From Burkholderiales bacterium (lineage in GTDB: Bacteria > Pseudomonadota > Gammaproteobacteria > Burkholderiales > Burkholderiaceae_C), in contig JAEMQF010000262.1 in assembly GCA_022758925.1 (NCBI GenBank), positions 1 through 33,971 of the forward strand: a DNA stretch of 33,971 bases. Reading direction: 5' to 3'. Numbering within the stretch: the first letter of the stretch is position 1; every line of letters begins with the position of its first letter. The position numbers and the translations under genes were made by a program. This document shows, in pieces, positions 3,394-33,971 of this stretch. A model generated the notes under the pieces. The model saw only the letters and a list, made by a program, of their open reading frames with translations, made no database searches and had not been told where the DNA came from.

Positions 3394-3819
3394 ATGACGG
3401 ATACGATCAAACAAATGGCGCGAAGACCGGGAACGATGCGATTGATCGACGCGCTTCAATACCGATTGCCGCTTGCGGGTTGGGTCTCGATCCTGCACCG
3501 CGCGAGTGGCGCACTGATGTTTGTGCTGTTGCCCTTCATCGTCTGGATGCTCGACACCAGTCTCAGTACGGAGATCAGCCACAGCCAGTTCATCGCCCTG
3601 TTTCTCGGCGGCGTGGGTTTCCTTCCGGGTTGGGTTTTCAAGTGGGTCGCGCTGGCCCTGATATGGGCCTATCTGCACCACTTCATCGCCGGCTTGCGCC
3701 ACCTTTGGATGGATGCAACGCACTCGGTGGACCTGGAATTCGGCCGCCGCTCGGCCGTCGTGACACTCGCCCTCAGTGCCGCGCTGACCTTGCTGCTGGG
3801 GGCAAAGCTGTTCTTCTAG
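3394..3819 (+). CDS. sdhC: Succinate dehydrogenase cytochrome b556 subunit
   Basis: RLIDALQYRLPLAGWVSILHRASGALMFVLLPF...YLHHFIAGLRHLWMD; stop TAG lies inside CTAG at 3816-3819. Confidence 0.95.
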   Translation: MTDTIKQMARRPGTMRLIDALQYRLPLAGWVSILHRASGALMFVLLPFIVWMLDTSLSTEISHSQFIALFLGGVGFLPGWVFKWVALALIWAYLHHFIAGLRHLWMDATHSVDLEFGRRSAVVTLALSAALTLLLGAKLFF

Positions 3820-3978
3820 TACTGCGTTCCGCCAATGAGCTTACAAATGAAATCGATGCATTCGTTCGCCAGGCGAGGGGCTGGGCCTCAGGCCCAGCGC
3901 GGCCTGCAAGGCTTGCAACGACGCATGGCGGACGAAGGCGCGATTTCATGTAAGCGGTTTGGCGGAACGCAGTACTAG
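3816..3978 (-). repeat. CTAG-bounded inverted-repeat structured element, copy 1 (163 bp, short variant)
   Basis: CTAGTACTGCGTTCCGCCAA (3816-3835) is the exact reverse complement of 3959-3978; the imperfect arm continues inward (..TTAC(AA)ATGAAATCG..TTCG.CCGCCA). 59 nt at 3866-3924 equal the reverse complement of 23271-23329. Internal hairpin CTGGGCC-tca-GGCCCAG at 3881-3897. Confidence 0.93.
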
Positions 3979-22719: not shown

Positions 22720-23220
22720 ATGAACCATTCAGGGGTGTGGCTCGACATCTTGCTCGGCGCGACGGTGCTGATCTCGATGACCGTCGGCATCATGCGTGGC
22801 CTGGTGTTCGAGATGCTGTCGGCGCTCGGCTGGGTGGCCGCCTACTTTGCGGCCCAATGGTTGGCGCCGAGTCTTGTGTCTTACGTTCCGGCCGAGGTCG
22901 CGGCTACCGGCATCAGGCGCGGGATCGCATTTGGCGTCATGTTTGTCGCCTTCCTGGTGGGCTGGGGCTTGATTTCGCGCGCGCTGCGTGCCGTGATTCG
23001 CGGCTCGCACATGAGCACCTCCGACCGCGCGCTGGGCGCGGCGTTCGGGATGGCGCGTGGCGTCGTGCTGTTGCTGGCGGTGGTCACCGTAATCCGACTC
23101 ACACCCTTGGCAGAAGCCGCGCCGTGGCGACATTCCAGCGCAGTGGCATGGTTGGAATCGGCGCTGCGCGGGCTCAAGCCGGTGCTGCCACGCGACGTCT
23201 CGCGCCACCTCCCGTCCTAG
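22720..23220 (+). CDS. cvpA: CvpA family membrane protein
   Basis: WLDILLGATVLISMTVGIMRGLVFEMLSALGWVAAYFAAQW; between dedD and purF; stop TAG lies in CTAG 23217-23220. Confidence 0.92.
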   Translation: MNHSGVWLDILLGATVLISMTVGIMRGLVFEMLSALGWVAAYFAAQWLAPSLVSYVPAEVAATGIRRGIAFGVMFVAFLVGWGLISRALRAVIRGSHMSTSDRALGAAFGMARGVVLLLAVVTVIRLTPLAEAAPWRHSSAVAWLESALRGLKPVLPRDVSRHLPS

Positions 23221-23464
23221 TACCGCGACCCAGAGATTTCGATACATGAAACCGCGTCTTCGGCCCGATGGCGTCGTTGCAAGCCTTGCAGGCCGCGCTG
23301 GGCCTGAGGCCCAGCCCCTCGCCTGGCGAGCGCAGTCCGCAGGGACTGCGCGCGTCCGGGCTCGGCCTCGCGATACCACGAGGTATCGCTGCGGTTTGCG
23401 CCTAGCCCTCGGACCGAATCCATCGCTTTCATTTCGTCTCGAAACCTCTGGGTCGCGGTACTAG
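23217..23464 (+). repeat. CTAG-bounded inverted-repeat structured element, copy 2 (248 bp, multi-hairpin)
   Basis: CTAGTACCGCGACCCAGAG-a-TTTCGA at the left pairs with TCGAAA-c-CTCTGGGTCGCGGTACTAG at the right; hairpins 23298-23314 (CTGGGCC-tga-GGCCCAG), 23330-23351 (GCGCAGTCC-gcag-GGACTGCGC), 23370-23389 (GCGATACC-acga-GGTATCGC); 59-nt identical core shared with copy 1. Confidence 0.93.
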
Positions 23465-33364: not shown

Positions 33365-33657
33365 TGGTGAAAAAGACCGTCGTCCCGAGGACAGATCGGC
33401 GTCTCAAGGTCGCCGGGCCCAAGGCAGCGTTGCCAGCGCCACCGCCAGCGCCGCGGCAGGAAGGGCCGGCCAACCCACATCATCCGCACCGCGCTCGGGC
33501 TGCGGTGGCCACGCCGTGCATCGCGACCAGGTTGGCGGTAGGGGCCCCCACCGTGCGCAAAGGCGCCGGGGTCGTACGCCCTTGCGCTGCTGCACTGCCC
33601 CGCGCGCGCCTGAATCAGCGCCCGGCGCGCGCGCGGCTAGACTCCGTGCCAGGCATC

Positions 33658-33970
33658 CGAGAAACCGCAGTTGACCGCTTTCCCCCGCTGGCTACACCGC
33701 ATGAACACTGACATCCATACCCACGACGACCCTCACCTTTTGGGTGAGAGCGCTACGCACCCGATTGAGCCGCGCTGCGGCACGCTGGCCGCGTTGCTCC
33801 ACCTTGCAGGCCGCGCCAAGCCGGGGGCTTGGCCCTTCGCCAGGCACAGCCAGTCCACAGGACTGTCTGTGTCCGGGCTCAGCCTCGCGGGCACGAGCCC
33901 GCCGCGTCGTCGCGCCTTGCCAGCGCACCGCATCACGGCCCACTCGGGCGCGTCCAACTGCGGTTTCTAG
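33658..33970 (+). repeat. CTAG-bounded inverted-repeat structured element, copy 3 (313 bp, divergent)
   Basis: AAACCGCAGTTG (33662-33673) pairs exactly with CAACTGCGGTTT (33955-33966), flanked by CGAG / CTAG; hairpins 33732-33748, 33816-33832, 33846-33870, 33887-33902; conserved ccTTGCAGGCCGCGC and GTCCGGGCTCaGCCTCGC shared with copy 2. Confidence 0.85.
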
Positions 33971-33971
33971 G

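Follow-up and report, generated by a model that had tools for sequence, protein, structure and literature searches.

Hairpin elements with matched arms and differing ends in Burkholderiales: probable MITEs whose ends seem to be exchanged around one core

Previous studies have described small mobile elements built on inverted repeats in several bacterial groups. Transposons of the IS630 family are reported to insert at the TA of CTAG and to duplicate that TA (Tenzen papers, as cited in PMC2170065), and in Neisseria the transcripts of Correia elements (NEMIS/CREE) are cut by RNase III at their inverted repeats (reviewed in PMC10969869). Our literature searches returned no description of the element family treated here, though earlier work on a Polaromonas MITE, referenced in PMC10969869, may cover part of it. 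A preliminary description of the window (i.e., the whole stretch of 33,971 nucleotides analysed here) had pointed to three hairpin copies whose terminal arms match within each copy and differ from one copy to the next. These copies and their parts are as follows.

3816..3978, core strand +: copy 1, family A, 163 nt
3816..3845, strand +: left terminal arm of copy 1, CTAG plus the inverted repeat TACTGCGTTCCGCCAA...
3863..3952, strand +: segment of copy 1 common to family B, 92% to copy 2 on the opposite strand, overlapping inner module M
3949..3978, strand -: right terminal arm of copy 1
23217..23464, core strand -: copy 2, family B, 248 nt
23283..23366, strand -: inner module M of copy 2, about 83 nt
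about 33657..33971, strand -: copy 3, family C, about 313 nt, reaching the contig end

The arms do match within each copy and differ between the three: they are 90% complementary over 30 nt in copy 1 (where the first 20 bp are perfect), 91% over 34 nt in copy 2 and 86% over 22 nt in copy 3, the left end of which is degenerate (CCGAG in place of CTAG). Folded as RNA, the whole 163 nt of copy 1 reach -109.9 kcal/mol, against -56.9 +/- 4.2 for shuffled sequences (z -12.6), and the corresponding DNA fold stands at z -13.7; no curated structured-RNA family in Rfam matches the elements. Copy 1 is flanked by two Sdh_cyt genes (sdhC and sdhD), and copy 2 by a cvpA-like gene with a Colicin_V domain and a purF-like gene. 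At each site the stop codon of the upstream gene (sdhC for copy 1, the cvpA-like gene for copy 2) is the TAG contained in the left CTAG, and insertion at such a CTAG leaves the stop intact. In relatives the sdhC-sdhD junction is without the element, these junctions being only about 70% alike and thus not a true empty site.

Two further observations concern the make-up of the copies. The inner module M consists of two hairpins (about 66-84 nt; 23283-23366 and 33811-33877 in the window, and also L023 and L050) and copies either have it or lack it at one fixed position, with lengths of 248 or 167 nt in family B and 313 or 232 nt in family C, as if it had been lost or gained cleanly more than once. 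Many contigs of the assembly also start or stop inside elements (position 33971 of the window, and G000 contigs C7, C27, C96, C129, C188 and C253), since repeats interrupt assembly.

When the host genome was searched with each copy, copies 1-3 proved to be members of three separate multi-copy families. Family A (arm CTAGTACTGCGTTCCGCC) has at least 6 copies, family B (arm CTAGTACYGCGACCCAGA) about 15 and family C (arm CTAGAAACCGCAGTTG) about 35, all lower bounds because copies were gathered by search, and the same genome holds a fourth family, D (arm CTAGTGTGGTGCGCCAGA). Arms are constant inside each of the families A, B, C and D and different between them. In family B, for example, 96.3% of cells in the 30-bp arms pair, 15 of the 30 arm pairs are invariant and 5 carry a concerted double change, whereas a control in which the partner was slid by 1-3 columns gave no concerted changes. 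One family A copy (L004, 1502-1770 on C284) has a short tandem duplication of GGCTAGGCGCAAACCGCAGCCA in its core. The three copies are thus not one element with diverging ends, as had been supposed, nor are their arms private to each copy; the window happens to hold one member of each of three families, which were therefore read as three divergent copies. Fixed common terminal sequences, which the preliminary description would have counted against its reading, do exist within each family but not across the superfamily, with its many different arm pairs.

All of these elements are short (163-313 nt), non-coding and without a transposase gene, and they form families of about 6 to 35 copies. We compared their arms with the ends of IS630 transposons. 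The single IS630-family (PF13358) transposon found in the host genome is bounded by CTAG sites, and its ends read CTAGTGTCATGAATCATAAGTTACGATACAT; the family B arm agrees with these at 17 of the 28 positions after CTAG and the family D arm at up to 19 of 28. The family A arm resembles the IS630 ends of relatives (CTAGTAGTTCGTTCCATCAATAACATTACAAA) at 21 of 28 positions after CTAG, with none of 4000 shuffles as good, and other IS630 ends of relatives resemble MITE arms elsewhere: CTAGTGYAGTGTTSCATTCT those of L156, L167 and L180 (23/28), and CTAGTGTCTTGAGTTAG that of L172 (19/28). In the shuffling test, the likeness of the A, B and D arms to IS630 ends has p of 0.0005 or below. Family C arms had no match among the IS630 ends collected (p 0.6-0.97), and the analysis brought up no autonomous transposon whose ends are exactly those of A, B, C or D.

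Most intact copies have CTAG at both ends and some have CTGG or CCAG at one end. At L137 (1380-1780), a natural nested insertion, the CTAG of one element's core has taken in an A-like element, which is bordered by CTAG left and right. Three loci (L014, L041 and L065) have CTGG on the left and CCAG on the right, which is the same change read inwards (i.e., an inverted and not a direct match) and could reflect repair acting on CTAG or a concerted change. Annotated plasmids held no related copies, and short arm queries for plasmids gave one plausible record (a Comamonas odontotermitis plasmid), the remainder being noise.

We give a probability of about 0.8 to the reading that these elements are MITEs moved in trans by IS630/Tc1-mariner transposases, which insert at CTAG with duplication of TA. 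The arms would be the terminal inverted repeats of the elements. The two arms of a copy would then agree because the transposase needs two like ends and because each copy is an offprint of one parent, and the arms would differ between the window copies because three families use the ends of different transposase subgroups. Mobilisation in trans, the exchange of ends discussed below and the reason for the strand polarity of the fold are what we infer from these patterns.

Other mobile systems can also produce small hairpins. Elements of the REP/REPIN type, spread by a Y1 (RAYT) transposase, came into consideration since the genome has one Y1_Tnp gene and since hairpin doublets with compensatory changes have been described for REPINs (PMC3116915). 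Here, on the contrary, the element ends match IS630 ends and sit at CTAG, and GTAG-tagged REP units were absent from the element sequences; we regard such an origin as highly improbable. The RAYT locus itself was examined and rejected as a source, as it holds no copy of any element and only matches of chance length (15-16 nt).

If IS630-like ends account for the arms, what lies between them calls for a further step. Families with CTAG arms and families with TNA arms have one core between them (CTAGGCGCAAACCGCAG-hairpin-CGAGGATTTGCAAC). This core occurs at 109 or more loci, almost all in Burkholderiales, with many different arm pairs; a few exact core matches that have no 3' half (e.g., L161, L201 and L257) look like chance. 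A sample of 301 genomes from the taxonomic family gave matches to copy 2 in 61 of them. In Comamonas and relatives, sister elements have arms of the form GA[AG]CNTGTT..., quite unlike those of the CTAG families, and the 3-bp TNA flanks of these IS5/IS1031-like arms are identical in 12 of 17 cases. We take arms of this form with TNA flanks to be of the IS1031 type, in the IS5 family. The retrieved loci, a small sample, contained no autonomous IS5-like element or transposase with Comamonas-type ends.

As one core is found with different pairs of ends, both ends seem, from sequence comparison, to have been exchanged around it. Since the structured core is common to the families, new arm pairs would have been put round the same core more than once, presumably with both ends swapped onto a constant core. 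On one strand, moreover, the closed stem of the whole element would be maintained, and this would make the arms change in concert wherever old copies remain.

Orthologous copies are available in Roseateles, where the core sits within stems of mostly 25-50 bp, many of them adjoining gene ends, and where such copies were recognised by their flanks (mostly 77-97% identical). Two Roseateles elements at L318 (G440:C17:760 and 905) lie 145 bp apart, apparently through a tandem duplication that included the flanks. The preliminary description had proposed comparing arms within and between copies and looking for arm replacement among closely related strains. Made here in another genus, the comparison finds that arms change in concert: in eight sets, represented by one pair each and chosen after the alignments were seen, 36 stem positions carry the same change on both arms against about 5 expected under independent drift. 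This sum leaves out L347/L349, whose common stem is too short, and the sets containing L398 or L355/L393, whose stems are ambiguous or broken. Selection for a closed stem, proposed at the outset as a reason for the matched arms, has support in the wider family through the concerted change in Roseateles and a conserved G.U polarity, the latter pointing to a stem kept on one strand. For the window the original interpretation is not supported, as three families with fixed ends are involved and two of the end types (A and B) resemble IS630 ends.

The same data bear on hairpin-templated strand correction, by which one arm is copied from its partner in replication or repair so that the ends stay matched as copies diverge. 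This mechanism, also put forward in the preliminary description as template-switch or strand correction between arms, is not needed for the window copies, whose arms are fixed by family, but is possible in Roseateles. Besides the excess of concerted over expected changes at the eight loci, 24 of the 36 are transversions and 12 are transitions, and the former count in its favour because transversions cannot pass through a G.U pair. The apical core hairpin, Watson-Crick in nearly all of its 59 distinct versions, is consistent with correction as well, since its pairs 2 and 6 are Watson-Crick in 100% of versions, swap mainly between G-C and C-G and never show G.U. However, the families of the window genome keep fixed arms, one-sided changes are not rare (29 positions in the same eight Roseateles pairs), and the same arms carry G.U mismatches at the same positions in several species, with a fixed polarity, a pattern that correction would erase. 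Because G.U mismatches are kept across species, any correction of the arms is not quick, and we consider it unlikely that strand correction is what keeps the arms matched.

The fold also has a direction: one strand's fold is favoured across families. Among arm mismatches, G.U falls on the core strand 102 times and on the other strand 17 times in Roseateles outer stems, and 266 versus 85 times in the other elements. With elements clustered by their arms to lessen shared ancestry, the core strand had the more stable fold of the two in 32 of 35 arm clusters and in 20 of 21 from Roseateles, and for the arms taken alone in 31 of 35 and 20 of 21, respectively; in the three window copies, too, the core strand is the more stable. 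Both the stability and the G.U counts favour the view that a folded single strand, either an RNA of the element's own or an ssDNA intermediate, is the functional or mobile form, with selection on the fold keeping the arms matched. The elements have no consistent orientation to neighbouring genes (at tandem genes, 38 same and 56 opposite, with gene direction taken from a simple GC-by-codon-position heuristic), and this mixed orientation makes read-through by host transcripts unlikely as the cause.

On the other side, single-step changes in families B and C, counted at pairs predicted on both strands, have no clear polarity (10 G.U versus 7 A.C, not significant), so that the polarity is a between-family signal, and as such may be old. 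Moreover, a folded-strand form has no known promoter, transcript or dedicated protein, and IS630 transposes as double-stranded DNA in the account of PMC2170065. That a folded strand is the functional or mobile form is possible but less likely than not. The reading as IS630-mobilised MITEs has its own gap here: a double-strand transposon needs no one-strand fold, and the MITE model alone therefore leaves the polarity unexplained.

A bolder combination would have a very old core that repeatedly took both ends at once from unrelated transposases (IS630 subgroups as well as one of IS5/IS1031 type) and that lives as a strand-specific folded molecule—a "parasite of parasites"—with arms renewed by arm-to-arm copying. 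We think this rather unlikely.

For MITEs with exchangeable ends, the apparent paradox of matched arms without common ends becomes a testable rule, namely that each arm is an end specific to a transposase and carried on an exchangeable core. Should the exchange prove real, it would offer a natural series of dozens of arm pairs around a single core for asking how a short hairpin comes by two new matching ends. The orthologous Roseateles copies would allow selection on pairing and arm-to-arm copying to be told apart.

Among known systems, the double-hairpin elements of fungal mitochondria offer an analogy of shape alone. Correia elements are likewise described as small, mobile and built on inverted repeats, but the arms here make up many families on one core. 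REPINs, too, are inverted doublets that form hairpins and show compensatory changes in their spacer (PMC3116915), yet they are REP pairs tied to RAYTs, whereas the present elements have CTAG or TNA flanks and IS630-like ends. The Comamonas versions agree with IS1031-type MITEs of the IS5 family in their inverted repeat, GA(A/G)CNTGTT..., and in 3-bp TNA duplications (12/17), but bear the same core as the CTAG families. The IS630/Tc1-mariner MITEs are similarly short, non-coding and multi-copy, with long terminal inverted repeats, CTAG flanks and IS630-like ends; unlike these, the elements described here are paired along nearly their whole length, keep one inner core across differing ends and prefer one strand for their fold. 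A MITE variant in which transposase-specific arms are swapped on a conserved folded core seems to be new.
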